Assembly (NCBI GenBank): GCA_036389795.1
Contig: DASVWD010000223.1
Location: 1 to 64,000, forward strand
Length of the DNA stretch: 64,000 nt
Reading direction: 5' to 3'
DNA from: Longimicrobium sp.
GTDB lineage: Bacteria; Gemmatimonadota; Gemmatimonadetes; Longimicrobiales; Longimicrobiaceae
Positions 7,313 through 36,394 of the stretch are shown piece after piece; the first letter of the stretch is position 1; the number at the start of each line of letters is the position of its first letter. Under the pieces are notes generated by a model. The model was not told the DNA's origin. It ran no database searches and was given only the letters and a program-made list of their open reading frames with translations. A program made the translations under genes and the position numbers.

Positions 7313-10219
<2,907 letters not shown>

Positions 10220-10226
10220 CCCTCCG

Positions 10227-10317: not shown

Positions 10318-10318
10318 G

Positions 10319-12087: not shown

Positions 12088-12170
12088 CTTGCCCTACCGG
12101 AAGGTCAAGTATTAACCAACGCAACCTCAATCGAGTCGTGGATTAGTTGCGTGCGGGGCCACGAATGGCA

Positions 12171-13148
12171 CTATTTAACGCCTGCTGGTGCCCCGGAGGA
12201 GGCGTGCACGACCGCCTCGATCTCAGCCGAGAACGACGCCATCGGCTCAAGCGGGAGCGCGAGCGCGACAGCGGCATCCTCTATCAACTGCCGCACTTGG
12301 TCTGGGACGGAGGCGTTTAGCGCATTCAAGACGCCAAGGGGCCCGCGCAGATGGTCGATGGTCGCCCCGCCGGCCAGCACCGGAAACAGTGGCCTTCGGG
12401 CGCCCCAGCGCGCGCCAAGCTCAAAGAGTACGTAAGCTGAACCGATGCTCGTCGGAGTAACAAGACCGACAAGGAGTTCGGCGCCAAACACCTCCGTTCG
12501 AAGAACATCGTTCGTGTCCGCCCCGGCGGGGAGACGGTAGCCGTCTATGCTAGTGCATCGGATTTTCCGGGCAGAGATCTTTAGTGCCTTCTCAAAGAGG
12601 CGGATCAGCGCGCGGGCAATCGCCTCGTCGGCACTGCTGTGGCTGATGAACAGGGTAAGTTCGGACACTACAGGAGCGATCGGAGTCTCATCCCCACTGT
12701 GCAGCCTAGCCTCGAACTCCGGGTCGTCGTGGACAAAGCGCAGGAAGTCGCGAACGAACGGCCGGAAAATCTGCCGCACGAACTCTGCCGTGTTCGCATC
12801 AGAATTATTTGCCACCCACAGGAACGTAGCGGAGAAATCCACCAGTCTAATTTGACCCGCAGCTATTCTCCGAATCAGTTCCACCTGAGCCGCAAGACGT
12901 TCCTCCGAATTGTGGGGGTAAGACAAATCCGCACTGCCGACCATTGAGCGCTGCGTCGACCTTTGGCGCTCATACCAAGAATCGAAATCAAATCTTGGCA
13001 GGCGGGCAACGACATCACCAAGGGGCGTCCCGGTGTGCAGCGTTGAGGCGAAGCGCCGAAGCGCATCCGGAAGCGTTTTCGCATTCGCCCTGGACACATC
13101 GTCCGAATAGTCTTGGAAGTCGCGCAGCGCCCGTCGATAGGTATTCAT
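12171..13148 (-). CDS. TIR-domain protein, candidate defence effector
   Basis: 325 aa. Residues 1 to about 160 are a helical domain with no clear family (VDFSATFLWVANNSDAN, FVRDFLRFVHDD). Residues about 165-290 form a TIR domain: LTLFISHSSADEAIARAL opens it, IDGYRLPAGADTNDVL is the middle, and GSAYVLFELGARWG contains the probable catalytic Glu243. Bacterial TIR proteins often degrade NAD+ or make signalling derivatives during phage infection; that role is inferred. The gene begins one base after the stop of the small upstream partner (TGATATG). Base composition is lower in GC than plsC and the genes to the right, consistent with acquisition. Confidence 0.8.
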   Translation of the reverse strand: MNTYRRALRDFQDYSDDVSRANAKTLPDALRRFASTLHTGTPLGDVVARLPRFDFDSWYERQRSTQRSMVGSADLSYPHNSEERLAAQVELIRRIAAGQIRLVDFSATFLWVANNSDANTAEFVRQIFRPFVRDFLRFVHDDPEFEARLHSGDETPIAPVVSELTLFISHSSADEAIARALIRLFEKALKISARKIRCTSIDGYRLPAGADTNDVLRTEVFGAELLVGLVTPTSIGSAYVLFELGARWGARRPLFPVLAGGATIDHLRGPLGVLNALNASVPDQVRQLIEDAAVALALPLEPMASFSAEIEAVVHASSGAPAGVK

Positions 13149-13149
13149 A

Positions 13150-13473
13150 TCACCCGAGCTCCAGTCGACGCATCACCCATTCGTCTGCTGCAGCAGCCAT
13201 CATCTCCTTCCAAGATGGAAAGCGGGTTCGCTCACGGACGAACGTGTCCCAAGCTTCGTCCGGGATTGCATTGAAGCTCTCGATGGAACTCACGTTGAAG
13301 CCGCTAGCGGCGAACATCGCCTCAGCCGATTGGAAATCGGTGTGCCGCAACATGAACTCGTCCGAAAAGAATTCGCTCACTGGGATCTCATGCTGGCCAT
13401 CCAATAGTTCAACCCGCCGTCGGAGGTTACGAATCTCTCTTAATGCATCGTCAAAACTCACCTTCGCCTCCAT
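13150..13473 (-). CDS. Small partner protein of the TIR gene, unknown function
   Basis: 107 aa, not recognised. The N-terminal 30 residues (DDALREIRNLRRRVELLDG) look like a short amphipathic or coiled-coil helix; the rest is acidic and aromatic (SEFFSDEF, WKEMMAAAADEWVMRRL). No transmembrane segment or signal peptide is present. It lies immediately upstream of the TIR gene with a 1-nt gap, so the two form one transcript. It could be a sensor, an inhibitor or an assembly partner; nothing in the sequence decides. Confidence 0.6.
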   Translation of the reverse strand: MEAKVSFDDALREIRNLRRRVELLDGQHEIPVSEFFSDEFMLRHTDFQSAEAMFAASGFNVSSIESFNAIPDEAWDTFVRERTRFPSWKEMMAAAADEWVMRRLELG

Positions 13474-13755
13474 TCTGCTTGAATTTTGCCACTCACTTCC
13501 GCGGTGAATCTAGAGTCGCGCTCACTAATTATAGAGTCTATCACAGCCGGGCGCACCATTCGTTCAGGTCGTTCGCCGCCTACCTGACCAGTTCGTTGGG
13601 CATTGAAACGGAAAACGAACGCATGATACGGTCGGGAGCTAACAGACCAGATTTCGTTGGCGTCAGAGACATTCTTTCCTTCCGTAATCCGCACTCATCC
13701 CTTCGGAGCCGTTCTTGCAACGCCCCGCCCGCCGGAGTCGGCGAGGAGGAGAGCG

Positions 13756-14475
13756 ATGTTCCCGTTTCCTTCCCCCGGGCAGGGGCGGCGCTTCCACGAC
13801 CGCCACGACGCGGGGCGGCGCTTGGCGGAGCGCCTGCGCGTGTACGCGGGGCGGCCGAACGTGCTGGTGCTGGCGCTGCCGCGCGGCGGGGTGCCGGTGG
13901 CGTACGAGGTGGCCCGCGCGCTCGGGGCGCCGCTCGACGTGTTCCTGGTGCGCAAGCTGGGCGTGCCCGGCCACGAGGAGCTGGCCATGGGCGCCATCGC
14001 CAGCGGCGGGGTGCGCGTGCTCAACGAGCGCGTGGTGAGCCAGCTGCGCGTCCCTCCCCAGGTGATCGACCGCGTGGCGGCGGCCGAGGAGCGCGAGCTC
14101 GTCCGCCGCGAGCGCGCCTACCGCGGCGACCGGCCGCCCCCGCGCGTGGAGGGGTGCGACGTGATCCTGGTGGACGACGGGCTGGCCACCGGCGCCAGCA
14201 TGCGCGCGGCGGCGGCCGCGCTCCGGGCGCAGGGGCCGCGGCGCGTGGTGATCGCCGTCCCCGTGGCGGCGGCCGAGACGTGCGAGGAGTTCCGCGGCGA
14301 GGTGGACGAGATCGTCTGCGACCTCACCCCCGACCCGTTCTACGCCGTGGGGCTCTGGTACGAGGACTTCTCGCAGACCACCGACGACGAGGTGCGCGAG
14401 CTGCTGGCCGCCGCCGGGGGCGGGCGGCCCGGGCACGCCGCGGGCGAGGGCGCCTCGGCCGGGCGGGAGGGGTGA
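13756..14475 (+). CDS. Phosphoribosyltransferase-family protein
   Basis: 239 aa. The PRPP-binding loop is [17 protein letters not shown], and the N-terminal part has [15 protein letters not shown] and [16 protein letters not shown], both typical of the family often annotated as predicted phosphoribosyltransferases. The ATG at 13756 follows GGAGGA at 13745-13750; a longer frame begins upstream in AT-rich sequence and is not preferred. It is followed 10 bp later by an alpha/beta hydrolase. In other bacteria the two domains occur fused as one protein, which supports a shared function, although the substrate is not known. Confidence 0.88.
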
Positions 14476-14485
14476 AGGAGGGGCG

Positions 14486-15172
14486 ATGGACACGGCGCGG
14501 ACGGAGCACGGCGAAGAGCTGGTGCGGGTGGCGGCCGGGCGGGTGAGCCTGGAGGGGAGCCTGGGCGTGCCGGCCGGCGCGCGCGGGGTGGTGCTCTTCG
14601 CGCACGGCAGCGGGAGCAGCCGCCACAGCTCCCGCAACCGCTACGTGGCCGGCGAGCTGCGCGGCGCCGGGCTGGGGACGCTGCTCATCGACCTGCTCAC
14701 CCCGCACGAGGAGGCGGTGGACGCGCGCACCGCCCACCTGCGCTTCGACATCGACCTGCTGGCCAACCGGCTGGTGGGCGCCCTCCGCTGGCTGGGCGCC
14801 GACCCGCGCACGCAGGGGCTCCCCGTGGGCCTCTTCGGCGCCAGCACGGGGGGCGGGGCGGCGCTGGTGGCCGCGGCGGCGCGGGCGAACGAGGTGGGCG
14901 CGGTGGTCTCGCGCGGCGGGCGCCCCGACCTGGCGGGCAGGGCCCTTCCCGAGGTGCGCGCCCCCACCCTCCTGGTGGTCGGCGGCGACGACGTGCCGGT
15001 GATCCGCCTGAACGAGCAGGCGTACGCCCAGCTGCGCTGCGAGAAGCGGATGGAGATCGTCCCCGGCGCCAGCCATCTCTTCGAGGAGCCCGGCACCCTG
15101 GAGCGGGTCGCCGAGCTCGCCACCGCCTGGTTCGTCCGCCACCTGGGCACCGGGATCCTGAGAACCGCATAG
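14486..15172 (+). CDS. Alpha/beta hydrolase, dienelactone hydrolase-like
   Basis: 228 aa. The fold's landmarks are VVLFAHGSGSSRHSSRN (oxyanion-hole strand), VGLFGASTGGGAALVAAA (nucleophile elbow G-A-S-T-G), VVGGDDVPVI (acid strand) and VPGASHLFEEPG (catalytic His). No signal peptide, so it is cytoplasmic. It is paired with the phosphoribosyltransferase immediately upstream. Substrate unknown. Confidence 0.88.
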   Translation: MDTARTEHGEELVRVAAGRVSLEGSLGVPAGARGVVLFAHGSGSSRHSSRNRYVAGELRGAGLGTLLIDLLTPHEEAVDARTAHLRFDIDLLANRLVGALRWLGADPRTQGLPVGLFGASTGGGAALVAAAARANEVGAVVSRGGRPDLAGRALPEVRAPTLLVVGGDDVPVIRLNEQAYAQLRCEKRMEIVPGASHLFEEPGTLERVAELATAWFVRHLGTGILRTA

Positions 15173-15173
15173 C

Positions 15174-15254
15174 CTCACGCAGAGGAAGCAGAGGTAGCGG
15201 AGAGGATCGCGGCCAGCGACGAGCTCTCCGCCGACTCCGCTGACTCTGTGTGAA
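15174..15254. repeat. Long imperfect hairpin of GCAGAGGAAGCAGAGG words
   Basis: Runs from TCACGCAGAGGAAGCAGAGG to CTGACTCTGTGTGA. The arms are complementary in a word-by-word, imperfect way, and the spacing suggests a long RNA hairpin just after the hydrolase stop codon. A second member lies at 22684-22773. Confidence 0.7.
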
Positions 15255-15314
15255 ACAAGTGGTTGTCCTTGGGTCTTCCAGGGGGAGGCACGATCCCTGC
15301 CCGGGAGCCGGCGC

Positions 15315-16244
15315 ATGCGCGTGCGAGCCTTCGTCTTCTGCGTTTCGATCCTCACCGCCGCGGGGTGCGGCGGCGGGGGCGGGACGGTCACCCTCCGCGG
15401 CGACTTCCCCGCCTCGGAGTCCGCGCCCACCAGCGTGGTGGCGGTGGAGGCGGAGCAGGAGGCCGAGGTCGCGAACGGCGGCTTCGAGATCGCCGGGCTC
15501 ACGCCGGGGCCCGTCACCCTGCGCCTGGTGCGCGAGGGCGAGACGCTGGGCACGCTGGCCGTCGGCAACCTCCCCGGGGGCTCCGTCCTGGCGCTGCGCG
15601 GGCTGCGGGTGGACCCCGCGACGCGGCGCGCCTTCCCGGCGGCGGTGGAGGTCGACGGCCCCGGGCTGGTGCGGATCAACGGCCTGCGCATGGGCCCCGC
15701 CGGCGCGCTCCCCGACGAGGTGGACGAGCGAGGCGTGGTGCTCGCGACCTCGATGGGCAGCGGCATCTTCCTGCTGCGGCCCGACGACGCCGACCTCCCC
15801 GACCTGCGCGTGCTGATCTCCCCCGCCGCCGAGGCGCTCACCCCCGACGGCGACCCCGTGGCCGTCGAGGGGCTGGCCGCGGGCGACTCGGTGCGCGTCG
15901 AGGGCCGCACCGACAGCGGCATCGTTGTCGCCACCCGCCTCACCGTTCCCCGCCACCTGGCGATCGCGGAGTCCGGCGCGCCCGGCGGGGAGGGAGTCGT
16001 CTCCGCCGCGTCCGGCGGCGATGGGTCCTCGTCCGGCGAGTCCGGCGGCGGTAACGGCGGAGATAGTGGGGACGATGGATCGGACGGCGGGGACGGCGGC
16101 GGGTCGGCGGAGCCCGCGCGCAGGGTGCCGGTGGCGCTCCCGCGCGCGATCCGCGAGCGCGGCGGGGGCGGGGGCGAGCGGGGGAAGGCGCGCGGCCGCG
16201 GCGCCGACAAGCCCCACGGCGGGGGGAAGAAGCCGAAGGGGTGA
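15315..16244 (+). CDS. Lipoprotein with Gly/Ser-rich tail, unknown function
   Basis: 309 aa. The N-terminus MRVRAFVFCVSILTAAGC has a signal sequence and a lipobox ending at about Cys18. Residues 20-110 look like a beta-rich carbohydrate-binding or Ig-like fold (VTLRGDFPASE, FEIAGLTPGPVTLRLV). Residues 110-220 resemble the repeated small beta domains of DUF5666-type proteins (VAVEGLAAGDSVRVEG). The final 90 residues are low-complexity Gly/Ser/Asp, then Arg/Lys-rich, which suggests a disordered or surface-binding tail. No close family recognised. Confidence 0.75.
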   Translation: MRVRAFVFCVSILTAAGCGGGGGTVTLRGDFPASESAPTSVVAVEAEQEAEVANGGFEIAGLTPGPVTLRLVREGETLGTLAVGNLPGGSVLALRGLRVDPATRRAFPAAVEVDGPGLVRINGLRMGPAGALPDEVDERGVVLATSMGSGIFLLRPDDADLPDLRVLISPAAEALTPDGDPVAVEGLAAGDSVRVEGRTDSGIVVATRLTVPRHLAIAESGAPGGEGVVSAASGGDGSSSGESGGGNGGDSGDDGSDGGDGGGSAEPARRVPVALPRAIRERGGGGGERGKARGRGADKPHGGGKKPKG

Positions 16245-16269
16245 GAGGGCGAGGGACAAAGGGGGCAAG

Positions 16270-16324
16270 GGCGGCTGAAGCCGCGGCAACAAAGGCAGAA
16301 AGCCTCGCAAACCCCGCGAGGCTT
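16270..16324 (+). repeat. 55-bp dispersed intergenic repeat, copy 1
   Basis: GGCGGCTGAAGCCGC, then GGCAACAA, then a hairpin AAGCCTCGC...GCGAGGCTT. The same element occurs inverted at 33488-33542. Confidence 0.75.
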
Positions 16325-16386
16325 CACTTCGACTTCAACCGCACCCACGGGCGGCCGCCTCTTCGCGGCACGACGCCGCGGTTCCC

Positions 16387-16415
16387 AGGCACTGGGCACT
16401 GGGCACTGGGCACTG
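16387..16415. repeat. Tandem GGCACTG words
   Basis: Four near-perfect heptamer units (GGCACTG) in a row between the lipoprotein and the first glycosyltransferase gene. Confidence 0.7.
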
Positions 16416-16482
16416 CTTTCCCATCCGCCCCCGGAAAGCTACCTTCCCACCCGCACCGCTCCACCCCGTCCCGCCGCCCGCG

Positions 16483-18234
16483 ATGGCTCGCCGCGACAAG
16501 CCCGCAGCACGCAAGGACAAGAAGCGCCGCCCCCCGGCCGGCGCCGCGCCGGCGGTCGCGCCCGCGCCGGTCGTCACCGTGCCGGCGCCCGCCGGGGCGG
16601 AGCTGCGCTCGTGGCACCACGGCTGGCGCATCCCCGCCGCGCTGGTGCTCCTGCACGTCGTCCTCGCCCTGCTCTCGTTCGTCCCCGCGCCCCACACCGG
16701 CGGCGACAACGCCGCGTACGCCTCCCTCGCCCGTGCGCTGCTGGAGGGGCGCGGCTACGTGGAGCTGTGGGACCCGGCCGTGCGCCCCCACACCCAGTTC
16801 CCCCCCGTCTTCCCCGCCCTCCTGGCGCTGGGCTCGCTGGTGGGGCTCGAGTGGTGGGTGGGCGCCAAGCTGATCGTGGTGGCGTTCTCGGCCCTGGCCG
16901 TCCTCTTCACCTACCTGTGGCTCAGGCGCGAGACCACGCCGGGCGTCGCGATCTCGGCGGGGCTCTTCGTGGCGTTCAGCCCCGGCGTGCTGGAGCTGAG
17001 CCACTGGGAGCTCTCCGACGTCCCGTTCTGGGCCTTCACCATGCTGGCGCTCTGGGCGTTCGCGCACTTCGAGGAGCGCCCGCTCGTCCCCGGCGGCCCG
17101 GGCGCGGACGCGGGAGCGGCGCCCAGGCTCGACGCCCGCTGGATCGCGGTGGCCACCGGGGCGACGGCGCTGGCGTACCTCACCCGCTCGGCAGGGCTGC
17201 CGCTGCTGCTGGCCGGCGCCGCCTGGCTGGCGTGGCGGCGGCGCTGGCGCGCGCTGGGAGTGTTCGGGGCGGTGGCCGGCGGGCTCGCCCTCGCCTGGTG
17301 GCTGCGCGGCGAGCTGGCCGGCGGCTCCGGATACCTGTCGTCCTTCTGGGCCGTGGACCCCTACACCCCCAGCAAGGGGACCATCGGCATCGCGGGGCTC
17401 TTCCCCCGGATGGCGGCCAACGGGTGGAAGTACGTGAGCGGCCACCTGCCGCTGCTCACCGTCAACAGCCGCTTCGTGGGGAAGCTGGTGGCGCTGGCGC
17501 TGATCGGGCTGGGGATCACGGGGTGGGCGCGGCGGCTCCGGCGCGCGGGCGTGGTGGAGCTCTGGGTGCCGCTGTACGTGGGGATGACGCTGGTGTGGCC
17601 CGAGACCTGGTCGGGCGAGCGCTTCGTGCTGCCGCTGCTGCCGGTGCTGCTGCTCTACACCGGCGAGGCGCTGCGCGACCTGCCGCCGAAGACCGACGCC
17701 GGGGCGATGGTGGCGCTGGGCGCGGCGGCGATCCTGTACGGCTTCTCGGTCCCCGGCCTGGTGAAGGAGGTGCGCCGCGGCACCGCGTGCACGGCCGCGT
17801 ACCTGCGCGGCGACGAGTTCGCGTGCACCCCCGCCCCCTGGCGCGACTTCCTCTCCCTGGCCCGGCTCACCCGCGACCGGCTCCCCGAAGGCAGCGTGGT
17901 GGTCTCGCGCAAGCCGACGCTCTTCTACGCCTTCTCGGGCTACCCGGGCCGCGTCTACCCGCTGAGCGCCGACCCCGACACCTTCTTCCGGGCCGCGCGC
18001 GAGGCGAGGGCCACGCACGTGGCGGTGGACGGCCTGGTGGACCTGACGCCGCGCTACCTGCGCCCCGCGGTGCTCGCCCGGGCCGAGCGCTTCTGCTGGA
18101 TGCCGGAGTTCCGGCTGCAGACCGCCTTCATGATGCGCATCCTGCCCGGCGGCGGCAGGCGCGCGCCCGACGGAGGTCCGCCCCCCTGCCAGCCCGGCGG
18201 ACGGCCGCCCGCTCCGCTGCCGGTGAGAAGATAG
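16483..18234 (+). CDS. Glycosyltransferase family 39-like polytopic membrane protein
   Basis: 583 aa. A basic, Pro/Ala-rich cytoplasmic tail (MARRDKPAARKDKKRR) precedes many hydrophobic segments. The first loop has PHTGGDNAAYASLARALLEGRGY, the acidic periplasmic signature of PMT/ArnT-like GT-C enzymes, followed by QFPPVFPALL and LSHWELSDVPFWAF. Such enzymes transfer sugars from a polyprenyl-phosphate donor outside the membrane. Its C-terminal soluble part contains VVVSRKPTLFYAFSGYPGR. The next gene (18541-20226) is a clear tandem paralogue. Substrate unknown. Confidence 0.82.
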   Translation: MARRDKPAARKDKKRRPPAGAAPAVAPAPVVTVPAPAGAELRSWHHGWRIPAALVLLHVVLALLSFVPAPHTGGDNAAYASLARALLEGRGYVELWDPAVRPHTQFPPVFPALLALGSLVGLEWWVGAKLIVVAFSALAVLFTYLWLRRETTPGVAISAGLFVAFSPGVLELSHWELSDVPFWAFTMLALWAFAHFEERPLVPGGPGADAGAAPRLDARWIAVATGATALAYLTRSAGLPLLLAGAAWLAWRRRWRALGVFGAVAGGLALAWWLRGELAGGSGYLSSFWAVDPYTPSKGTIGIAGLFPRMAANGWKYVSGHLPLLTVNSRFVGKLVALALIGLGITGWARRLRRAGVVELWVPLYVGMTLVWPETWSGERFVLPLLPVLLLYTGEALRDLPPKTDAGAMVALGAAAILYGFSVPGLVKEVRRGTACTAAYLRGDEFACTPAPWRDFLSLARLTRDRLPEGSVVVSRKPTLFYAFSGYPGRVYPLSADPDTFFRAAREARATHVAVDGLVDLTPRYLRPAVLARAERFCWMPEFRLQTAFMMRILPGGGRRAPDGGPPPCQPGGRPPAPLPVRR

Positions 18235-18235
18235 T

Positions 18236-18309
18236 CCTTAGTGCTTAGTCCTTAGTGCTTAGTCCTTAGTCCTGAGTTCTAAGGACTAAAACACTAAGCA
18301 CTTAGGACT
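18236..18309. repeat. Long imperfect hairpin of CTTAGTGCTTAGTCC words
   Basis: Starts 2 nt after the stop codon of the upstream glycosyltransferase. The left arm repeats AGTCCTTAGTGCTTAGTCC; the right arm is GGACTAAAACACTAAGCACT. It is probably a strong RNA hairpin between the tandem paralogues. Confidence 0.75.
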
Positions 18310-18434
18310 CAGCGCTTCGGGTTCGGGCGTGTCCCTCCGCTGCGCTCCGGGCCGGGCTGCGCGCATCCCTCACGCAACTGCAGGGACAGGGGACAGCCGG
18401 CAAGGACCCGCCTCTGCGCTGATCCCGTCGAGTA

Positions 18435-18495
18435 CCCTCTCCCGAAGTTGGGAGAGGGTGGACGCCCTGAGGCGGCCGGGTGAGGGCCCCCGCCG
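18435..18495. repeat. CCCTCTCCC/GGGAGAGGG hairpin repeat
   Basis: CCCTCTCCCGAAGTTGGGAG forms a hairpin with GGGAGAGGG and is followed by GGTGAGGGCCCC. A related copy lies at 30768-30833. It belongs to a hairpin type that is widespread in bacterial intergenic DNA. Confidence 0.6.
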
Positions 18496-18540
18496 CCGCG
18501 CCGAACGTCGCACCCCGCACTCCCGACGCCGCCGCCGCCC

Positions 18541-20226
18541 GTGACGCACCCACGGTCCCGCCTCCGCAGGCACCCCGCCGCCCCGCGCCCCGCGCCCGCC
18601 GCCGGGGCGGCCGGCGCGCGCGCGGCGCGGCTGCGGATCGACCGCTGGTGGGTGCCGGCGCTGCTGGCGGCGCTGCACGTGGGGCTGGCGCTCCTGGCGT
18701 TCGTCCCCGCGCCGCACCCGGGGGGCGACAACGCCGTTTACCTCGCGCTCGCCCGCTCGCTCCTGGCCGGCGAGGGCTACCGCGACCTGTACGCCCCCGG
18801 CGCTCCCGCGCACGTGCAGTTCCCCCCCGGGTTCCCGGCGCTCCTGGCCGCGGGCCTCGCGCTGGGGCTCAGGGCCTGGGCGGGGATCAAGCTGGTGGTC
18901 GTCGCGGCGTCCGCGGCCGCGGTGGCGCTCACCTGGGCGTGGGCGCGGCGGCGCGGCGGCCCCCGCGCGGCGCTCGCCGCCGCCTTCCTCGTCGCGGTGA
19001 GCCCGGGCGTGCTGGAGCTGAGCCACTGGGAGCTCTCCGACGTGCCGTTCTGGGCGCTCACCATGGCGGCGCTGCTGGGGTGGGAGCGGCTGGGGAGGGG
19101 GAGGACGCGCCGCCTGGTCTTCGCCTCGCTCGCGACCGCGGCCGCGTACCTCACGCGCTCGGCAGGGCTGCCGCTGCTGGGGGCGGCGGCGCTCTGGCTG
19201 GCGTGGCGGCGGCGCTGGAAGCAGCTCGGCCTCTACCTGCTGGCGACGGTCCCGCCCGCCGCCGCCTGGTGGCTGTGGACGCGGGCGCAGCGCAGCTACC
19301 TCGAAGCGTTCTGGTCCGCGAACCCGTACGCGCCCGGCGGGGGGGCACTGACCCTCTCCGGCGTATTCGGGCGGATCGTGGAGAACCTGGGGCTCTACCT
19401 GGGCCGCCTCTTCCCCACCCTGCTCTGGGGCTCGGCGGGCACCCTCTTCGTCGTCCTGGGCGGCGCGGTGGCGGCGCTTGCGCTCTACGGCTGGGCGCGG
19501 CACCTGCGCCGGCCGGGCGTCGCCGAGGCCTGGTTCCCGCTCTACGCCGGCATGCTCCTGCTCTGGACCCCGCAGTGGGCCGGCGAGCGCCTGGCGCTCC
19601 CCCTCCTCCCGCTGGTCCTCCTCTACGCGGGCGAAGGCGTCGTGGCGCTCGCGCGGCTCATGCGGGCGGCCTCGCCCCGCGCGGTGGCGACCGCCGCGGC
19701 CGCCGTCTTCGCGCTGGCGTGCGCACCGGGGCTCGCGGCGAAGGTGGGCGCGGGGTCGGCGTGCACGCGCGCGTACCTGGACGGCGACGCCTACGCGTGT
19801 CTCTCCGCCGAGTGGCACGACTTCTTTGCGATGGCCGAGGTCGCGCGGGACCGGCTGCCGGACGGCGCGGTGGTGGTCTCGCGCAAGCCGGCGCTCTTCC
19901 ACGCCGAGTCCGGCCTGCGCGGGCGCACCTTCCCGCTGGCGCGCGACCCCGGCGCCTTCTTCCGCGCGGCGGAGGAGGCCGGCGCCCGCTACGTGGTGCT
20001 CGACTACCTGGACGAAGTCTCCACGCAGTACCTCACCCCGATCCTGATCCGCCGCCCGCGGGCGTTCTGCGTGATCGAGGCGCTGGGCCCCGAGCGCGCG
20101 GTGCTCTTCGGCATCGCCCCCGGCGCCGCGCGGATGCCCGACCAGCGCGCCGACCCCGGCGCGGCGGAGGTGGACGTCGGCTTCAAGCCGTGCGGGCGGG
20201 AGTACCTGCGAACCGAAGTGCGTTAG
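18541..20226 (+). CDS. Glycosyltransferase family 39-like membrane protein, tandem paralogue
   Basis: 561 aa from a GTG start; the frame is continuous, but no good ribosome-binding sequence is visible, so the start may be off by some codons. It shares blocks with the upstream gene: PAPHPGGDNAVYLALARSLL, QFPPGFPALLAAG, LSHWELSDVPFWAL, AAYLTRSAGLPLL and VVVSRKPALFHAESGLRGR. The conserved acidic periplasmic loop and multiple membrane spans mark a GT-C-type enzyme using a lipid-linked sugar. The pair probably arose by tandem duplication. Confidence 0.82.
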   Translation: MTHPRSRLRRHPAAPRPAPAAGAAGARAARLRIDRWWVPALLAALHVGLALLAFVPAPHPGGDNAVYLALARSLLAGEGYRDLYAPGAPAHVQFPPGFPALLAAGLALGLRAWAGIKLVVVAASAAAVALTWAWARRRGGPRAALAAAFLVAVSPGVLELSHWELSDVPFWALTMAALLGWERLGRGRTRRLVFASLATAAAYLTRSAGLPLLGAAALWLAWRRRWKQLGLYLLATVPPAAAWWLWTRAQRSYLEAFWSANPYAPGGGALTLSGVFGRIVENLGLYLGRLFPTLLWGSAGTLFVVLGGAVAALALYGWARHLRRPGVAEAWFPLYAGMLLLWTPQWAGERLALPLLPLVLLYAGEGVVALARLMRAASPRAVATAAAAVFALACAPGLAAKVGAGSACTRAYLDGDAYACLSAEWHDFFAMAEVARDRLPDGAVVVSRKPALFHAESGLRGRTFPLARDPGAFFRAAEEAGARYVVLDYLDEVSTQYLTPILIRRPRAFCVIEALGPERAVLFGIAPGAARMPDQRADPGAAEVDVGFKPCGREYLRTEVR

Positions 20227-20293
20227 TACGTGAGTGCGGAAGTGCGTAACTGCTGCGTCCCAACGCACTCACGCACACGCACTCACGCACTTT
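20215..20293. repeat. Long imperfect hairpin of GTGCGTGAG words
   Basis: Spans the end of the second glycosyltransferase gene and stops 5 nt before the convergent kinase stop codon. Arms: GAAGTGCGTTAGTACGTGAG and CTCACGCACACGCACTCACG. It probably acts as a bidirectional terminator between convergent genes. Confidence 0.7.
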
Positions 20294-20297
20294 CTTC

Positions 20298-22046
20298 TCA
20301 CCGCGGCCTGCGATTGACGCGGTACACCTGCAGCTGCTTCTCGGAGACGATCACCCAGCGTCCCTCGCGCTTCTCCAGGATCAGCTCCTGGCGCATGGAG
20401 CCGGTCCACGCCTCGTCGTCGCCCAGGAACTCCCAACTCTTGTCCACCAGGTCGCGCGCGCGGCCGTCGTCGCGGAAGGTGACGGCCTGGCGGTGCACGG
20501 TGATGCTGCGCCGCGGGTACTGCTCCAGCGCCGTCCGCCGGTCGCGGCGCACGAATGAGCGCGAGGCGTTCTCCTCGTTGTAGTAGTCCACCCGCCGGCC
20601 GTAGTACGACATGTGGCGGTCCAGGTCGCCGTCCACCCAGGCCTTGTTGGCGTCCAGCACCGCCGCCTGGATCGCCGCCGCCTCGGCGCGCTGCGACGCG
20701 GCCCGCGCGGCCGCGGTGTCTTCCGCGGGCGGGGCCGGGGCGCTCTCGGCGGGGAGCGCCGCGGCGGGCGGGGGCGCGGCGGTGTCTTCCAGCGACTCCG
20801 ACGCCGCGCCCTGCAGCCGCACGAACTCCTCCTCCAGCGCGGCGAGCCGGCTGGTGTCGGGGAGCGCCGGCGCCGCCTCGGCCGTGCGCTCGCGGTCGCC
20901 GCCGCCGCGCGTGGCCGCCCACACCGCGATCAGCCCGGCGAGCAGGACGGCCGGGATCCCCCACAGCGCGGGAGAGCGGCGCCGCGCGCGCCGGACGGAG
21001 GCCGCCGGACCCGGGCCGGGCGGCGGGCCGACCACGATCGGCGGCGCCTCGCGCGGCGCGGCGGGCGGCGGGGCCGGGGGCGCGGAAGCGGCCGCGGCGG
21101 CGGCTGCGGGCATGGCGACGGTGGCGTCCGCGGGGACGGCGACCGGCGCCTCGGCGAGGGGCGGGTGCAGGAGCGTGCGGTCCTCCGCCTCGGCGAGCGC
21201 CTCGGCGAAGGCGGCGGCGTTGGGGTAGCGCTCGGCGGGGTCGCGGCGCAGCGCGCGGCCGATCACCTCGCGCAGCGGCGCGGGAACGGCGCGCCAGCGC
21301 GGCGTCTCCACCAGCGGCACCTCCTCGCCGGCCAGGAGCCGCTTGCGCTCGCGCTCGGAGAAGGGGCGCTCGCCGGTGAGCAGCTCGTAGCCGATCAGCC
21401 CCAGCTGGTACACGTCCGACGCGGGACTGACGGCGCGCTCGGGGTCCAGCTGCTCGGGCGACGCGTACGCGGGGGAGTGCGGGAGCTGGCCCAGGATGGT
21501 GATGCTGTCCGAGTCCGCGCCCTCCAGCGGCTTGGCGATGCCGAAGTCCAGCAGCCGCACCGACTCCAGGGCGCCGGCGCCCACCAGGAACACGTTGGCG
21601 GGCTTCACGTCGCGGTGCACGATCCCCACGCGGTGGCCGGCGGAGAGCCCGCGCGCGGCCTCGCGCAGGATGCGCAGCGCCTCCTCGGGCGGGGGCGGCC
21701 CGTCGACGAGCGCCTGCTTGAGGTCGCGCCCGCGCAGGAGCTCCATGACGATGAAGTCCAGGTCCAGCTCGGGGTCGGTCCCGTAGTCGTAGATCTGGAC
21801 CACGTTCGGGTGGTGGGGGATGCGCGCCGCCGAGGCCGCCTCGCGCCGGAAGCGCTCGCGCAGGTTGTCGCGCAGCCCCTCCGACTCGGCCGGGATGGAG
21901 ACCACCTTGACCGCCACGGGGCGCCCCAGAGTGTGGTCGAGCCCGCGGAAGACCACGCTCATCCCGCCGGAGCCGATCACCTCCTCCAGCTCGTAGCGCC
22001 CGGCGAGCGTGCGCCCGACCAGGACCCGTCCGAAGGGCTGGCTCAT
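20298..22046 (-). CDS. PknB-type Ser/Thr protein kinase with C-terminal NTF2-like domain
   Basis: 582 aa. Kinase motifs: IGSGGMSVVFRG (Gly loop), PVAVKVV (Lys), IVHRDVKPANV (HRD, catalytic Asp), LLDFGIAK (DFG) and PAYASPEQLDP (APE region). A Pro/Ala linker from about residue 300 leads to one membrane span (ALWGIPAVLLAGLIAVWAA, about residue 385), then a coiled-coil-like stretch and an extracytoplasmic domain (DANKAWVDGDLDRHMSYYG) resembling SnoaL/DUF4440 NTF2-like folds, a likely ligand sensor. The start overlaps the DinB stop (ATGA), so the two are coupled. The long frame upstream of the ATG is a shadow of the DinB gene. Confidence 0.9.
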   Translation of the reverse strand: MSQPFGRVLVGRTLAGRYELEEVIGSGGMSVVFRGLDHTLGRPVAVKVVSIPAESEGLRDNLRERFRREAASAARIPHHPNVVQIYDYGTDPELDLDFIVMELLRGRDLKQALVDGPPPPEEALRILREAARGLSAGHRVGIVHRDVKPANVFLVGAGALESVRLLDFGIAKPLEGADSDSITILGQLPHSPAYASPEQLDPERAVSPASDVYQLGLIGYELLTGERPFSERERKRLLAGEEVPLVETPRWRAVPAPLREVIGRALRRDPAERYPNAAAFAEALAEAEDRTLLHPPLAEAPVAVPADATVAMPAAAAAAASAPPAPPPAAPREAPPIVVGPPPGPGPAASVRRARRRSPALWGIPAVLLAGLIAVWAATRGGGDRERTAEAAPALPDTSRLAALEEEFVRLQGAASESLEDTAAPPPAAALPAESAPAPPAEDTAAARAASQRAEAAAIQAAVLDANKAWVDGDLDRHMSYYGRRVDYYNEENASRSFVRRDRRTALEQYPRRSITVHRQAVTFRDDGRARDLVDKSWEFLGDDEAWTGSMRQELILEKREGRWVIVSEKQLQVYRVNRRPR

Positions 22047-22564
22047 CCCGCGCCCGCCTCCACGGCGGGCGCGCGGGCGTCCTGCCCTCGCACCGCCAGC
22101 GCGATCTGCCGCACGGCGCCCAGGTGGTAGGCCGCGTGCGCGAGCGCCCCCGCCACGGCCGCGAGCGTGAGCTCCTTCCAGTCCCGCACCTCGTCGACGG
22201 TGCGGCGGAGGCGCTCGTACTCGCCCCGGAGCGCGGCCCGCAGCTCCTCCCACCCGCGCTCGTCGACCGTCTCCACCGCCCAGCTCCGGGCCCAGTCGGG
22301 ACGCACCCGCTCGCCCGCGATGAAGCGCGACAGCACGTCCATGCTGAAGCGCAGGTGCTCGGCGTGCGCGGCCACGCTCCTCCTCCCCGACCCCGGCGCG
22401 CGCGACGCCTCCCCGGCCGAGAGCGCGCGCAGGGTGCCGAAGAGCCCGGAGTCCGCCGCGTTCTCCACGAACCACGTCATCCGCGGGTCGCGCGGCCCCT
22501 CGTACCCTTCCGCCAGCACTTCCAGCAGCGAGCGCAGCACCGCGTCCCGCGTGAAGATCGACAT
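22043..22564 (-). CDS. DinB-family four-helix-bundle protein
   Basis: 173 aa starting MSIFTRDAVLRSLLEVLAEG. The DinB/YfiT-type metal-site histidines are seen in VAAHAEHLRFSMDVL and AGALAHAAYHLGAVRQI, arranged as in metal-dependent thiol transferase-like bundles. Biochemical role unknown. It is the first gene of a two-gene operon with the kinase (4-nt overlap). A longer in-frame ATG at 22675 adds a low-similarity extension and is not preferred. Confidence 0.78.
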   Translation of the reverse strand: MSIFTRDAVLRSLLEVLAEGYEGPRDPRMTWFVENAADSGLFGTLRALSAGEASRAPGSGRRSVAAHAEHLRFSMDVLSRFIAGERVRPDWARSWAVETVDERGWEELRAALRGEYERLRRTVDEVRDWKELTLAAVAGALAHAAYHLGAVRQIALAVRGQDARAPAVEAGAG

Positions 22565-22683
22565 CCTCGTCTCCGTACGCCTGGGTCGAACCCGAGCGAA
22601 GGAGGGGGAGCAAGGGGTATGCCTTGGACGGATCGCCCTTCCCGGATGCCGCTCGTGCGCTTCCCCGGTGGTCAACTGCTCAT

Positions 22684-22773
22684 CTCACACGGGGGAAACA
22701 GAGGAAGCAGAGAACTCACCGCTCGTCGTGGTTTCCTCTGCTACCTCTGCTTCCTCTGCGTGAGGCCAGGCAG
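22684..22773. repeat. Long imperfect hairpin of GCAGAGGAAGCAGAGG words, second copy
   Basis: Arms AACAGAGGAAGCAGAGA and TCTGCTACCTCTGCTTCCTC; outer ends are TCACAC and GCGTGA, as in the copy at 15174-15254. It fills the gap between the antiporter stop and the DinB start. Confidence 0.7.
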
Positions 22774-22792
22774 TTCGTGGTTTGATCTCATA

Positions 22793-24076
22793 TCACACGA
22801 TGAGCTGCACCCGCTCGGGCTCGCTCTCAGCCTCCGCCTGGTCGGCGCGGATCAGGCGGGCGGGGTAGACCAGCTCCAGCAGCGGCGAGGTCATGAAGGT
22901 GGTCGCCAGCGCCATCAGCACCAGCATGGCGAAGAGCGCGGGCGAGATCACCCCGATGTCCAGGCCGATGTTCAGGATCACCAGCTCCATCAGCCCGCGC
23001 GTGTTCATCAGCACCCCGATCGCCCCCGCCTCGCGCCAGCCCATCCCCGTCGCCCGCGCCGCCACCGCCGAGCCGCCCCACTTCCCGGCGATGGCGACCA
23101 CCACGATCACCCCGCAGAACGCCCACATCTCCATCCCCTCCAGCAGGCCGACCCGCGTCCGGAGGCCCGTGAAGGCGAAGAAGAGCGGGAGGAGCAGCAC
23201 CACGGTGAGGTCCTCCAGCTTCTCGGAGAGCGCGTGGACGAAGCCCTCGCCGCGGGGCATCACCGCGCCGGCCAGGAAGGCGCCGAAGAGGGCGTGGATC
23301 CCCAGCGCCTCCGTCGTCCAGGCGGACGCGAGCACCACCAGGAGGATCGCGGCCAGCATGTCCTGCGTGAGCACCTCGCCCCGGCGCGCGTACCAGCGCT
23401 CCAGCCCCGCCAGCGGGCGGCGCGCCACGAAGAGCATGAGCAGGATGAAGGCAGCCGAGCCGCCGAGCGTGGCCCAGAGCGGCGGCCCGCCCGCGCCCGA
23501 GCGCACCAGCGCCACCACGCCCGCCAGGATCCACCACGCCGTCACGTCGTTCACCGCCGCGCAGGCGAGCGCCACGGCGCCCACCCGGGTGCCCAGCAGG
23601 TCGCGCTCGGTGAGGATGCGCGCCAGCACGGGGAAGGCGGTCACGCTCATGGCCGCGCCCATGAAGAGCGCGAAGCCGCCGAAGCGCACCCCGTCGTCCG
23701 AGAGGCGCGGGTAGAGGAAGAGCGCCAGCGCGGCGCCCAGCACGAAGGGCACGGCGATGCTGGCGTGGCTGGTGACCACGGCGGTGCGGCTCCTCCCCCG
23801 CAGCAGCCGCGGGTCGAGCTCCAGCCCCACCAGGAACATGAAGATGAGCAGCCCCACCTGGCTGATGGCGCCCAGCAGCCCCAGCGACCCGGCCGGGAAG
23901 AGCCGCTCCGACACCGCCGGCGCCGCCCAGCCGAGAAGCGACGGCCCCAGCAGGATCCCGGCGACCATCTCGCCCATCACCTGCGGCTGGCGGATGCGGC
24001 GGAAGAGGACCCCCACCAGCCGCGCGGCCGCCACGATCACGCCCACCTGCACCAGCAGGAGGAGGAGGTCCGTCAT
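22793..24076 (-). CDS. CPA2-type cation:proton antiporter (KefB/NapA-like)
   Basis: 427 aa, about 12 hydrophobic spans. Features of CPA2 exchangers: GILLGPSLLGW, LLIFMFLVGLELDPRLL, SVTAFPVLARILTERDL, CAAVNDVTAWWILAG (the ion-binding ND of the core) and GIHALFGAFLAGAVMPR, then NTRGLMELVILNIGLDIG. It lacks the C-terminal TrkA-N domain of KefB, so it ends just after the membrane part. It exchanges Na+ or K+ for H+ across the inner membrane. It overlaps the following membrane-anchored gene by 4 nt (ATGA). Confidence 0.92.
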   Translation of the reverse strand: MTDLLLLLVQVGVIVAAARLVGVLFRRIRQPQVMGEMVAGILLGPSLLGWAAPAVSERLFPAGSLGLLGAISQVGLLIFMFLVGLELDPRLLRGRSRTAVVTSHASIAVPFVLGAALALFLYPRLSDDGVRFGGFALFMGAAMSVTAFPVLARILTERDLLGTRVGAVALACAAVNDVTAWWILAGVVALVRSGAGGPPLWATLGGSAAFILLMLFVARRPLAGLERWYARRGEVLTQDMLAAILLVVLASAWTTEALGIHALFGAFLAGAVMPRGEGFVHALSEKLEDLTVVLLLPLFFAFTGLRTRVGLLEGMEMWAFCGVIVVVAIAGKWGGSAVAARATGMGWREAGAIGVLMNTRGLMELVILNIGLDIGVISPALFAMLVLMALATTFMTSPLLELVYPARLIRADQAEAESEPERVQLIV

Positions 24077-24534
24077 CGGCGCCCCCTCCCCCGCCCCGCC
24101 GGCTGCCGGACGGCGGCGACGTGCGTCGGGCGGCAGCGCGGGTCGCCGGGGATCAGGATCGTCCCGGTCATCCGGTCGGGCTCGGCGGCGCGGTCGACCC
24201 GCGCCCGGAAGACCATCCCCCGCCCCGGGTCGCACGGAGAGTCCGCCGGCGGGACAGGACCGGTCTTCTCGACGGCCAGGATCGAGTCGCCCTGGAGCAC
24301 GCCCGTGAACCGGAGCACGCCGGCCTGGACCACCAGGTGGACGCCCGACTGCTCCACCTCCAGCAGCAGCGGCTCGGGGCGCCTCTCGCTCCGCCACGTC
24401 CCGCCGACCGACGGCGGCGCCTGCAGGCCGCGGCCCGCGCGCAGGATCGCCAGCAGCGCGGCCAGCGGGAGGCCCACCAGCAACGCGTAGAACAGGAGCG
24501 CGCGGAGCGCGGAGGCGCGGGGGATCGGGCTCAC
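24073..24534 (-). CDS. Membrane-anchored protein of unknown function
   Basis: 153 aa from a GTG at 24534; the exact start is uncertain because no clear ribosome-binding site precedes it and the frame stays open upstream. One N-terminal hydrophobic helix (LRALLFYALLVGLPLAALLA) is followed by an extracytoplasmic beta-rich domain (GTWRSERRPEPLLLEVEQSG, RFTGVLQGDSILAVEKTG). It is the upstream partner of the antiporter (ATGA overlap), so it may be an accessory subunit. Not recognised. Confidence 0.6.
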   Translation of the reverse strand: MSPIPRASALRALLFYALLVGLPLAALLAILRAGRGLQAPPSVGGTWRSERRPEPLLLEVEQSGVHLVVQAGVLRFTGVLQGDSILAVEKTGPVPPADSPCDPGRGMVFRARVDRAAEPDRMTGTILIPGDPRCRPTHVAAVRQPAGRGRGRR

Positions 24535-24780
24535 GGGTGCGTACGTCAACAAAAAGCCGCCTCGTCGGCGCGGGCGGCGGAGAAAAGCGCGTTCCGGGGG
24601 CGCGGGGCGGAATCTAGCTGCCGCCGGTCCGGACGCAACGCGGACTTCGCCCTCGCCCTCCCCTGCACGCCGCACCGGGCACGCGCGCCCGACCGTCTCT
24701 CCCTCTCACCTCCACCGATCACCGGAGCGGGCGTGGACAAAGTGTACAGCGTTTGCCAGCAGTATGTCCAATGTTGTACC

Positions 24781-24797
24781 TGGACAGGTCATGAACA
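24781..24797 (+). promoter_or_regulatory. Candidate CarH operator, upstream pair
   Basis: TGGACA (24781) and TGAACA (24792) begin exactly 11 bp apart. CarH-type photoreceptors are known to bind tandem 11-bp repeats containing TnnACA. Further TnnACA motifs occur at 24734 and 24743. Confidence 0.5.
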
Positions 24798-24858
24798 AAC
24801 CCGGTCGCCGTCAGTGTTTTCGCATCAGTCGCGTCAATTCGCCGTCCGTGGAATCTCT

Positions 24859-24888
24859 TGACAAAGATTGAACAGACCTTGTAGGCTT
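24859..24888 (+). promoter_or_regulatory. Candidate promoter overlapped by a second CarH operator pair
   Basis: A perfect -35 (TTGACA, 24859-24864) with a TAGGCT -10 at 24883-24888 (18-bp spacer). The -35 itself fits TnnACA and is followed 11 bp later by TGAACA (24870), so repressor binding would cover the -35. Confidence 0.55.
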
Positions 24889-24895
24889 CTCGCCA

Positions 24896-25848
24896 TGTCA
24901 CGGGACGACGTGGAGCGGGAGCCGAGACACCCGATCCGGGTGGTGAGCGAGCGCACGGGGCTCTCGCCCGACGTGCTGCGCGCCTGGGAGAAGCGCTACG
25001 GCGCCGTCGCCCCGCCGCGGCGCGAGGGGATGGGGCAGCGGCTGTACAGCGACGCCGACGTGGAGCGGCTGCGGCTGCTCCGGCGCGTGACCCAGGCCGG
25101 GCGCCCGATCGGCCAGGTGGCGGGGCTGGGCGACGACGAGCTGCTCAGGCTGGCGCGCGAGGACGAGGAGCAGCGCGCCCTGCTGGCCGCCTCGCCCGCC
25201 GCGCGGCGCGACGGCCGGGCCGCGGCCGCGTACGTCAGCCGCGCGCTGGACGAGGCGCGCGCCCTGGACGGCCCCGGGCTGGAGGGGGTGCTGCGGCGCG
25301 CCCTGGTGGCCATGGGGGCCGAGTCGTTCATCGACGAGGTGGCGGTGGCGTTCCTGCGCGCCGTGGGCGCCGGGTGGGAGGAGGGGCGGCTGGGGGTGGC
25401 GCACGAGCACCTGGCCTCGGCGGCGCTGACCGGGGTGCTGGCGATGGTCACCGACACGGCCGAGGCCAACGGGGCGGGGAGGGTGGTGGTGGCCACCCCC
25501 GCCCGCCAGCGGCACGAGCTGGGGGCGCTCCTGGCGGCGGCCACGGCGGCCACGGCCGGGTGGCGGGTCACGTACCTGGGCGCCGACCTCCCCGCCGAGG
25601 AGATCGCCCGCGCCGCCGCGCAGACCGACGCCCGCGCCGTGGCGCTCAGCGTGGTCTACCCCGCCGACGGCGCCGCGCTGGGCGACGAGATGCGCCGGCT
25701 GCGGCGCGCCCTGCCGCCCGGGACCGCGGTGATCGCCGGCGGCGAGGGGGCGCGGCGCCTGGGCCCGCTCCTGCACGAGACGGCGATCACCTTCCTCCCC
25801 ACCCTCCCCGAGTTCCGCCGCGCGCTGGAGCAGATGGGAAGTGCGTGA
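24896..25848 (+). CDS. CarH/LitR-type B12-dependent photoreceptor transcriptional regulator
   Basis: 316 aa from ATG 24896. Residues 15-80 form a MerR winged helix (IRVVSERTGLSPDVLRAWEK). Residues about 110-190 are the B12-binding helical bundle with the CarH signature W-x9-EH (WEEGRLGVAHEH), which caps adenosylcobalamin. Residues about 190-310 are the Rossmann-like cobalamin domain with the lower-ligand His in RQRHELGALLA, then WRVTYLGADLP. In characterised homologues the dark AdoCbl tetramer represses carotenoid genes and light disrupts it. The promoter shows 11-bp-spaced TnnACA repeats, so autoregulation is likely. Carotenoid genes are not in this window. Confidence 0.85.
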
Positions 25849-25889
25849 GGGCTCCTCCGCGGCAACTACGATCGAGCGGGGATTCGGCG

Positions 25890-27011
25890 CTATTCCGATT
25901 CGAGGACCTGCAGCTGGGATTCCATCCGCCTGCGAGCAGCCGTGATCGCGGTATGGAGCTTCTGCTCGAGGATTTCCCGCGGCGGCAGCTCGGTGATGTA
26001 CTCAGCGACCCGGATGCCGCTCTTCTCGAGCTGGAGCAGCTCGACGTGCTCCTCTGACTTGCCTGCACACAGGATGAGGCCGAGCGGCGACTCCTCGCCT
26101 GGACGCTGCTCGTATTTCTGAAGCCACCGGAGGTACAGCTCCATCTGTCCTTTGTCCGCCGCCTGGAAACGGCCCAGCTTCAGGTCGATCGCGATCAGGC
26201 GCCGCAGCCGCCGGTGGAAGAAGAGGAGGTCCAGCCGGTAGTCGACGCCGTCGACGGTCATCCGCTTCTGGCGGCCCACGAAGGCGAAATCGGTTCCGAG
26301 CTCGGCGATGAAGCCCTCGATCTCCCGGAGGATCGCCGTTTCGAGGTCTCGCTCGTCGTAGGCGTCCTTCAGGCGGAGGAAATCGAGAACGTACTGGTCA
26401 CGAAAGACCAGATCCGCGCTCATGCGATCTTCGTTGCGAAGAGCTTGCAGCTCTTTTGCGGCGAGGATCTCCGGTTTCCTGGAGATGGCGGTCCTCTCGA
26501 AGAGCATGCCCTGGATCTTCTGCTGGAGCGTGCGGACGCTCCAGCGCTCGGTCATGCACATCTGCGCGTAGAACTCGCGCCGGAGCGAATCGTCGAGGGC
26601 TGTCAGGACCACGAGGTGCGACCACCCCAATTGTGCAGACATCGTCTGCACAATCTCCGCGTCCGGGAAAGCCCTTGCCACCCGCACCATGTTGAAGAGG
26701 TTGCGCCGCGAGAAGCCGGAGCCGTACTCGGTGGCGAGGCGGTCCGCCAGCCGCTCCACGACCTGTTTTCCGTATTCGCCACGATCATCGGCCAGGACCT
26801 CGCGCCCGATCCTCTCGCCGATGCTCCAGTAGGTGATGGCCATCGCCGAGTTCACCACCCGTGCGGTGTGCTGGCGGGAGGCCTCGATCAAGGAGCGGAT
26901 CTCGGCCAGCAGCCGCCGCTCGCCGGAGGGCGGTCTCCCGGCCGGTGCCAGGTGTGCGCCGCCCACGCGTGAGATGGGCTCCGCCTTGCCTTTGGTGACT
27001 TTGTCGCTCAT
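25890..27011 (-). CDS. YhcG-family (DUF1016) PD-(D/E)XK nuclease-domain protein
   Basis: 373 aa from ATG 27011 (MSDKVTKGKAEPIS). The N-terminal DUF1016 helical domain shows ITYWSIGERIGREVL, GFSRRNLFNMVRVARAFPD and EIVQTMSAQLGWSH. The C-terminal nuclease domain has VDYRLDLLFFHRRLRRLIAI followed by DLKLGRF, with the D...(D/E)XK layout of PD-(D/E)XK enzymes, and QMELYLRWLQKYEQ. Such proteins are common near mobile and defence loci and are thought to act on DNA, but the biological role is not established. A perfect DNA palindrome lies within the coding sequence and a near copy lies upstream. Confidence 0.85.
   Translation of the reverse strand: MSDKVTKGKAEPISRVGGAHLAPAGRPPSGERRLLAEIRSLIEASRQHTARVVNSAMAITYWSIGERIGREVLADDRGEYGKQVVERLADRLATEYGSGFSRRNLFNMVRVARAFPDAEIVQTMSAQLGWSHLVVLTALDDSLRREFYAQMCMTERWSVRTLQQKIQGMLFERTAISRKPEILAAKELQALRNEDRMSADLVFRDQYVLDFLRLKDAYDERDLETAILREIEGFIAELGTDFAFVGRQKRMTVDGVDYRLDLLFFHRRLRRLIAIDLKLGRFQAADKGQMELYLRWLQKYEQRPGEESPLGLILCAGKSEEHVELLQLEKSGIRVAEYITELPPREILEQKLHTAITAARRRMESQLQVLESE
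26630..26654. repeat. Perfect 25-bp palindrome inside the YhcG gene
   Basis: ATTGTGCAGAC, three bases, GTCTGCACAAT. It encodes the conserved EIVQTMSAQL segment. A near-identical palindrome lies at 27128-27152. Confidence 0.85.
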
Positions 27012-35454: not shown

Positions 35455-35919
35455 GGGCGGGGGGCCTCCGTCCAGGGTTCATGAGCGAAGCCGCGCGAGA
35501 ACGTAGGTCGCTGCTTCCCCGGCTTCAACCGTGACGGGGGTGACCGGGATGAATACGACGGAAAGCGCCGCGGCGAGGCCGCCGCGGCGCTTCCGGTTCA
35601 CCCGTCCCGCGGGCCCAACGCCCGTGGGACATCCGTTTGCCGCCAACGAAACGGGAAGGGACGAGGGGCTGCTCGCGGCGACGGAGCCTTCCGCGTGGTG
35701 AAGAGCCAGGTGCTGCGGAAAAAAGACCTTGCGGATTCGGGATGGCGGGGTTTCTGTAAAGATGGCCGCAGATGGGAGCGGCCGAAGCGCCATGCTCCGC
35801 AGGCCGATCCCGCGAGAACCGGGACGCGCCGGGAGCCCCCGCTGGATTCGGCGTCTCGATCGATCCCGGACGCGAACGCCTCGCGTCCGGAAGCCCATCC
35901 CCTAACGCGCAGAGGACCG
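35455..35919. other. Gap with hairpin, no supported gene
   Basis: 465 bp. It contains a strong hairpin (35563-35574 with 35581-35592) but no convincing coding sequence; open frames on the minus strand here are shadows of GC-rich sequence. The right end holds the upstream region of the small Cys-rich peptide gene. Confidence 0.55.
35563..35592. terminator. GC-rich hairpin, terminator-like
   Basis: Perfect 12-bp stem AAGCGCCGCGGC with a 6-nt loop. No T-run of note on either side, so orientation is uncertain. It has the same style as the terminators at 141-172 and 36173-36204. Confidence 0.45.
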
Positions 35920-36144
35920 ATGAAGAAGCTCAGGTTGAACCCCGACGAGCTCAGGGTCGAGCCCTTCGAGCTGGAATCCCGGGAGGCGGAGGCGAGCGGC
36001 ACGGTCCACGGCAACGACCTCACGGGGGCCGGCTGCCCCACGTCGCCCCAGTACAGCTGCGGCTACCCGCGCACCTGCGGCGGCACGAGCTGCGACACGG
36101 GATACCCGCTCTGCTACCAGTGCACCGGCCGCTGCGGGGCATGA
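35920..36144 (+). CDS. RiPP-like precursor peptide, Cys-rich core with pinensin-like leader
   Basis: 74 aa. The leader MKKLRLNPDELRVEPFEL resembles leaders of pinensin-type lanthipeptides (MKKL.L...L.VE.FE). A Gly/Thr/His junction (SGTVHGN) then precedes a core of about 40 residues with seven Cys and several Thr/Ser: GCPTSPQ, YSCGYPRTCGG, TSCDTGYPLC and YQCTGRCGA. Such cores can be cyclised with Thr/Ser-Cys bridges. AGAGG lies 4-8 nt upstream of the ATG. No LanB/LanC/LanM, radical-SAM or transporter gene is next to it, so modification would need enzymes elsewhere; an unmodified secreted Cys-rich peptide is the alternative. A good terminator follows. Confidence 0.7.
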   Translation: MKKLRLNPDELRVEPFELESREAEASGTVHGNDLTGAGCPTSPQYSCGYPRTCGGTSCDTGYPLCYQCTGRCGA

Positions 36145-36172: not shown

Positions 36173-36206
36173 AAAGCGCCGCAGCGAAGTCGCTGCGGCG
36201 CTTTTA
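36173..36206 (+). terminator. Rho-independent terminator of the RiPP-like gene
   Basis: Perfect 14-bp stem (36173-36186 with 36191-36204), 4-nt loop, and a run of T residues (CTTTTAT) across and beyond its 3' arm. It lies 29 bp after the peptide's stop codon. Confidence 0.85.
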
Positions 36207-36210
36207 TCTG

Positions 36211-36373
36211 ATACCAGATCCGTTGAGTAGTTTACGTTCGACCGAACCGATGTCATCCCGAGGGGAGCGGTAGCGACCCGAGGGATCTACTCGACGGTTC
36301 TGGTGGGTGGCGAGTCGAGCAGATTGCCTGACGCGCCCCGTCTGATCACCCACTGTTCATCCGGATCTGGTAT
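36211..36373. mobile_element. MITE-like element with 12-bp terminal inverted repeats
   Basis: ATACCAGATCCG at 36211-36222 is the perfect reverse complement of CGGATCTGGTAT at 36362-36373. The 163-bp interval encodes nothing and contains GTCATCCCGAGGGGAGCGGT, part of a repeat type seen in many bacterial intergenic regions. No transposase is present, so it would be non-autonomous. Confidence 0.55.
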
Positions 36374-36394
36374 GAGGTGCCCCGACAGGACGAC

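Follow-up and report, generated by a model that had tools for sequence, protein, structure and literature searches.

A Cys-rich peptide gene of Longimicrobium is a predicted class I lanthipeptide precursor within a genome-wide library that one split LanB-LanC may serve

We find that a short Cys-rich peptide gene in a 64,000-nucleotide stretch of Longimicrobium sp. DNA (the window, on contig C223) carries a leader that recurs throughout the same genome (G000; 7.5 Mb in 285 contigs, 98% complete), and the gene is very probably the precursor of a class I (pinensin-type) lanthipeptide that is modified in trans, in a library of about 150 precursors served by one split LanB-LanC. This reading of the sequences rests on the sister genes, the single split LanB-LanC, the intact motifs of these enzymes, strict co-occurrence of leader and LanB, and operon linkage of the two in relatives. 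The original prediction, which was made from the window only, described the gene as an orphan, a description that about 150 sister genes in the same genome overturn; its suggestion of a stand-alone precursor dependent on remote enzymes appears correct, as the sole LanB locus lies on another contig and the leader tracks LanB.

Results

The window gene and its signals

The gene and its associated elements are as follows.

35866–35890, + strand: 10-bp perfect inverted repeat CCGGACGCGA-ACGCC-TCGCGTCCGG, upstream of the ribosome-binding site (repeat search and subfamily comparison)
35911–35916, + strand: AGAGGA, resembling a ribosome-binding site; fair, not strong, and scored as a partial match
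35920–36144, + strand: precursor peptide gene, leader plus Cys-rich core, ATG to TGA, 74 aa (leave-out leader profile; core-conserved orthologs)
35920–36006, + strand: leader, residues 1–29, MKKLRLNPDELRVEPFELESREAEASGTV (alignment A1 of sister leaders)
35998–36015, + strand: GTVHGN, conserved leader-core junction (G27, T28 and V29 invariant)
36007–36141, + strand: core with seven Cys plus Ser and Thr (subfamily motif SCGYPxTCGGTSCDxGYPxCYQC kept in other species)
36173–36204, + strand: intrinsic terminator hairpin, perfect 15-bp stem followed by T's (inverted repeat and folding energy)

The peptide belongs to a subfamily with a VEPF leader, with a paralog on contig C154 (70%) and, in two further species of the genus, orthologs (73–74%), some in tandem copies, in which the core motif given above is conserved. 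Median dN/dS in this subfamily is about 0.33 for the leader and 0.53 for the core, which points to purifying selection on the product, and, judged by its sequence conservation, the open reading frame is a real gene. The 74-residue gene originally predicted is thus upheld, and its translation confirms the core of seven Cys plus Thr and Ser, with all seven Cys of the peptide located in this C-terminal part. GTVHGN is the probable region in which the leader is removed, given the invariant G27, T28 and V29 and the subtilase gene that accompanies sister arrays.

A good ribosome-binding site and a terminator had both been proposed; the terminator stands, while AGAGGA is only fair. The terminator arms (36173–36187 and 36190–36204) form a 15-bp perfect inverted repeat that runs into T's, with a minimum free energy of −29.7 kcal/mol (z = −6.3 relative to shuffled sequences). 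This hairpin is not among the calls of a simple consensus terminator scan of the window, probably because the T run is absorbed by the stem. Terminators are not a trait of the family, as they follow 18 of 150 precursors compared to 48 of 611 controls. At the 5' end, several members of the VEPF subfamily have stems at the same place as the 35866–35890 repeat, with compensating changes, and other precursors mostly lack them; the repeat may be an operator or a 5' UTR hairpin. No convincing promoter motif is shared upstream of the precursors; enriched upstream k-mers, considered as such a motif, are largely coding sequence of upstream sisters and vanished when only leading genes were used. Just beyond the terminator lie inverted 15-nt arms, CTGATACCAGATCCG and CGGATCTGGTATGAG, 139 nt apart (36208–36376), possibly a small mobile repeat.

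The flanking genes examined encode a PD40-repeat protein, a GNAT acetyltransferase, a LysR regulator and a CHASE/PAS histidine kinase, all unrelated to the precursor. Searches of contig C223 for LanB (PF04738) and LanC (PF05147) return no match, in line with the expectation that no modification enzyme lies within the window, and Pfam and NCBIfam searches with the window peptide alone likewise return none.

A pinensin-like leader shared by about 150 genes

Alignment of 49 sister leaders (A1, also used as the search profile) gives the consensus KKLxLxxDxLxVESF...GTV, in which K3, L6, L11, V13, F16, G27, T28 and V29 are invariant. A leave-out profile built from the 47 other leaders, excluding the window peptide and its closest paralog, recovers the window gene with E = 2e-14 among 1039 window frames, compared to E = 1.1 for the next-best frame, so that the leader match is not due to chance. 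The pinensin-like leader of the original prediction is borne out by the sisters: NCBIfam model NF038180 (pinensin family lanthipeptide) describes the same leader family and, of 30 sisters sampled, recognizes 26 at E ≤ 1; some of these exceed its cut-off (32.6 vs. 24 bits), and many others score below it. At E ≤ 0.001, the model matches 18 genes in G000 and 25 in a related genome, G009, with 31 candidates scored in each genome. No hit to NF038180 is obtained with the window peptide, which is too divergent (VEPF instead of VESF), and its tie to pinensin therefore runs through the sisters that it joins at E = 2e-14.

When G000 is searched with the window peptide, 26 matches are obtained; the 49-leader profile yields 150 at E ≤ 0.01 among the matches listed, on 66 contigs, with 148 of these at E ≤ 0.001. 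About 150 is a fair count for this genome, since the last matches listed are already marginal. The leader-match sites correspond to 151 distinct open reading frames, no two of them identical (median 75 aa, median 6 Cys); a few look truncated or disturbed in frame. Fifty-five of the 150 precursors are solitary, with no sister within 1.5 kb, and the others cluster in sets that range from two genes to about 13. Their dispersal is not solely the product of a fragmented assembly: on individual contigs of G009, which has 60 in all, leader genes are separated by hundreds of kilobases. Counts across the leader-bearing genomes range from 1 to at least 150, a number also reached in two relatives of G000.

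A single split LanB-LanC and its linkage to the leader

G000 contains exactly one LanB locus (C225:8283-15041), on a different contig from the window gene. It encodes a Lant_dehydr_N protein of 1077 aa, an adjacent, separate Lant_dehydr_C protein of 350 aa and then a LanC of 681 aa (LANC_like, E = 4e-49), the best NCBIfam match of which is TIGR03897, the cyclase part of the LanM model. The motif Y..R...K..PF of LanB-N is conserved in orthologs and corresponds to Y80, R83 and R87 of NisB, with Lys at the R87 position; these residues and H961 belong to the NisB active site (PMC4341554). Conserved LanB-C motifs are FIRY, RYGG and SYxHMxxNR, and the His of the last is probably the equivalent of H961, from a match at the level of the motif. 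A PDB search with LanB-N gave no match to NisB (best, 6ec7), so its active-site residues are matched by motif rather than by structure. In LanC, the zinc ligands C309, C356 and H357 are invariant in six orthologs, and its two CHG motifs are conserved in orthologs. LanC also has a C-terminal extension of ~250 aa (L036:14300-15041), conserved in orthologs and with no convincing match to a known domain.

C225 holds no precursor, and the contig ends 335 bp past LanC, so a precursor beside this gene may be missing from the assembly. Elsewhere in G000, a precursor array on C206 is followed by genes for an ABC transporter, HlyD and an S8 subtilase, identified by Pfam. In four relatives, G015 (L093), G014 (L094), G008 (L097) and G009 (L098), the LanB-N/LanB-C/LanC operon includes leader-family precursors; a gene for an ABC transporter of the same type follows the operon in G015, G008 and G009, and HlyD- and subtilase-like genes, recognized by their start sequences, also follow in G015 and G009.

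Across G000 and 60 related genomes, the leader is found in exactly ten of the 61, and LanB scores over the cut-off in the same ten. Repeating the comparison on 21 genomes of the family gives both in 10 and neither in 11, with no exception (Fisher p = 2.8e-6 with genomes treated as independent, which overstates their independence since they are related); within the genus, seven genomes have both and three have neither. The leader is not common to unrelated proteins lacking a modification signature; it is found instead almost only on Cys/Ser/Thr-rich cores, and only in LanB-bearing genomes.

Core composition and alternative explanations

The cores are composed of 16.6% Cys, 13% Thr and 6.7% Ser, with Ser/Thr enriched 2.5-fold at position −1 and 2.2-fold at position −5 relative to Cys. 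A Cys-Cys spacing of four is preferred, giving an [ST]C-x-x-[ST]C pattern that alone is no proof of lanthionines; the [ST]C dipeptides, which account for half of all Cys, would also suit disulfide-containing or metal-binding peptides. The precursors might accordingly be read as secreted disulfide-rich or metal-binding peptides, with a leader that is an export and cleavage signal for the ABC-HlyD-subtilase system and with LanB-LanC modifying just a few of them, a reading in keeping with the 55 solitary genes away from LanB, with repeats of the [ST]C and Cys-x-x-x-Cys kinds and with a few scattered, weak hits to Cxxx-repeat models. We consider it unlikely, as none of the 61 genomes has leader-family genes but lacks LanB, one leader is common to solitary and LanB-linked precursors, and Ser/Thr equals or exceeds Cys in 127 of 141 cores; odd and even numbers of Cys are about equally frequent (73 and 68), as would not be expected if all Cys had to pair in disulfides. 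The alternative proposal of a new class of secreted Cys-rich peptide, read as unmodified, is not supported.

Other modification enzymes would have to be credited if the cores were substrates of the two LanM enzymes on C28 or of the LanC-HopA1 (class V-like) set on C285, both of which are present in G000. This is very improbable, given that the LanM cluster has double-Gly leader peptides of its own, from another family, and that neither set carries the library leader, whereas the split LanB does so in four relatives. We give even less credence to a radical-SAM substrate of the ranthipeptide/SCIFF or Cxxx-repeat type: such targets share Cys-dense cores and Cys-x-x-x repeats with our precursors, and single sisters match TIGR04114 or TIGR04117 weakly, but it is LanB that tracks the leader and is operon-linked to it, and no matching enzyme recurs beside the dispersed precursors, where the only recurrent neighbors are an SDR-type family and, at three loci, an ABC transporter.

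Discussion

Proposed pathway

For the lanthipeptide reading, we infer from sequence the chemistry, the relation of one enzyme set to all precursors, export, leader cleavage and the role of the product. The shared leader would deliver each precursor to the single split LanB, of which LanB-N would glutamylate core Ser/Thr with Glu-tRNA as donor and LanB-C would eliminate glutamate to give dehydro-residues; the single zinc LanC would then join Cys thiols to these residues, forming (methyl)lanthionines. A dedicated ABC/HlyD exporter may secrete the peptide, with the subtilase predicted to cut off the leader near GTV, and the product may be antimicrobial or act in signaling.

Relation to known systems

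Pinensin systems divide glutamylation and elimination between two proteins, and pinensin-type LanC is reported to be closer to LanM cyclase domains (PMC7268733). The system described here resembles that of pinensin (Chitinophaga, class I) in the NF038180 leader of the sisters, the split LanB and the LanM-like LanC cyclase, and differs in its ~150 precursors, most of them far from the enzymes, and in its Gemmatimonadota lineage; pinensin is from Bacteroidota, and the largest single-cluster class I set reported in the same paper comprises 10 precursors (PMC7268733). The window precursor does not stand beside the enzymes. Such proximity is customary for the pinensin type and not a matter of chemistry, and sister genes do show it in G008, G009, G014 and G015.

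In layout the library is like the prochlorosins and synechococsins, for which ProcM and SyncM have 29 and 79 substrates (PMC10783134, PMC9872173): a conserved leader, hypervariable cores, scattered solitary and tandem genes and one enzyme set, with shared processing here a prediction from that layout. The G000 library is about twice the largest reported set that we found (79). Despite the like layout, it is outside the prochlorosin class, since the enzymes, leader and zinc ligands differ: a class I split LanB and a separate CCH-type LanC here, one LanM with CCC ligands there, and a library leader with neither Nif11 character nor a double-Gly site, followed by Cys-rich cores (median 6 Cys). The CCC ligand set is that of the promiscuous ProcM (PMC11251773); the C225 LanC is of the CCH type, so promiscuity would need another cause.

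It is probable, if less firmly so than the assignment of the window gene, that one class I LanB-LanC pair, lacking the CCC site linked to ProcM promiscuity, processes ~150 Cys-rich, multi-ring precursors encoded chromosome-wide (at least 150 in two relatives); if so, this would be the first class I lanthipeptide library and, of all classes, the largest natural one in a single cell. A literature search found no class I or Longimicrobiaceae precursor expansion, with subscription journals mostly outside its scope, so an earlier report may exist. In the papers found, in-trans, diversity-generating lanthipeptide biosynthesis involves only class II ProcM-like enzymes; if our proposal is true, the strategy evolved independently around another dehydratase and another cyclase. 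Peptide engineering would then gain a promiscuous set of class I enzymes, and a phylum that has received little study would supply many natural multi-ring peptides. Mining of gene clusters misses most peptides of the G000 library.

Other lanthipeptide loci

The C28 cluster of G000 (6000-25900; L037) comprises two LanM genes and about ten short peptides with double-Gly leaders (ELxDEALEQVAGG), and is a separate class II lanthipeptide cluster. At about 109.9–113.6 kb of C285 (L038:9896-13594) are genes for a LanC-like protein of 438 aa, a HopA1-family protein of 342 aa and a third protein, of 374 aa, that has no Pfam match; this set resembles class V lanthipeptide enzymes and adjoins two large proteins without an assigned role. 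Two further leader-family precursors, L103:11000-11242 and L095:6825-7097, have cores that are almost pure (SC/TC xx) repeats, and each is found near a divergent LanB of its own; the former is the only precursor of its genome.
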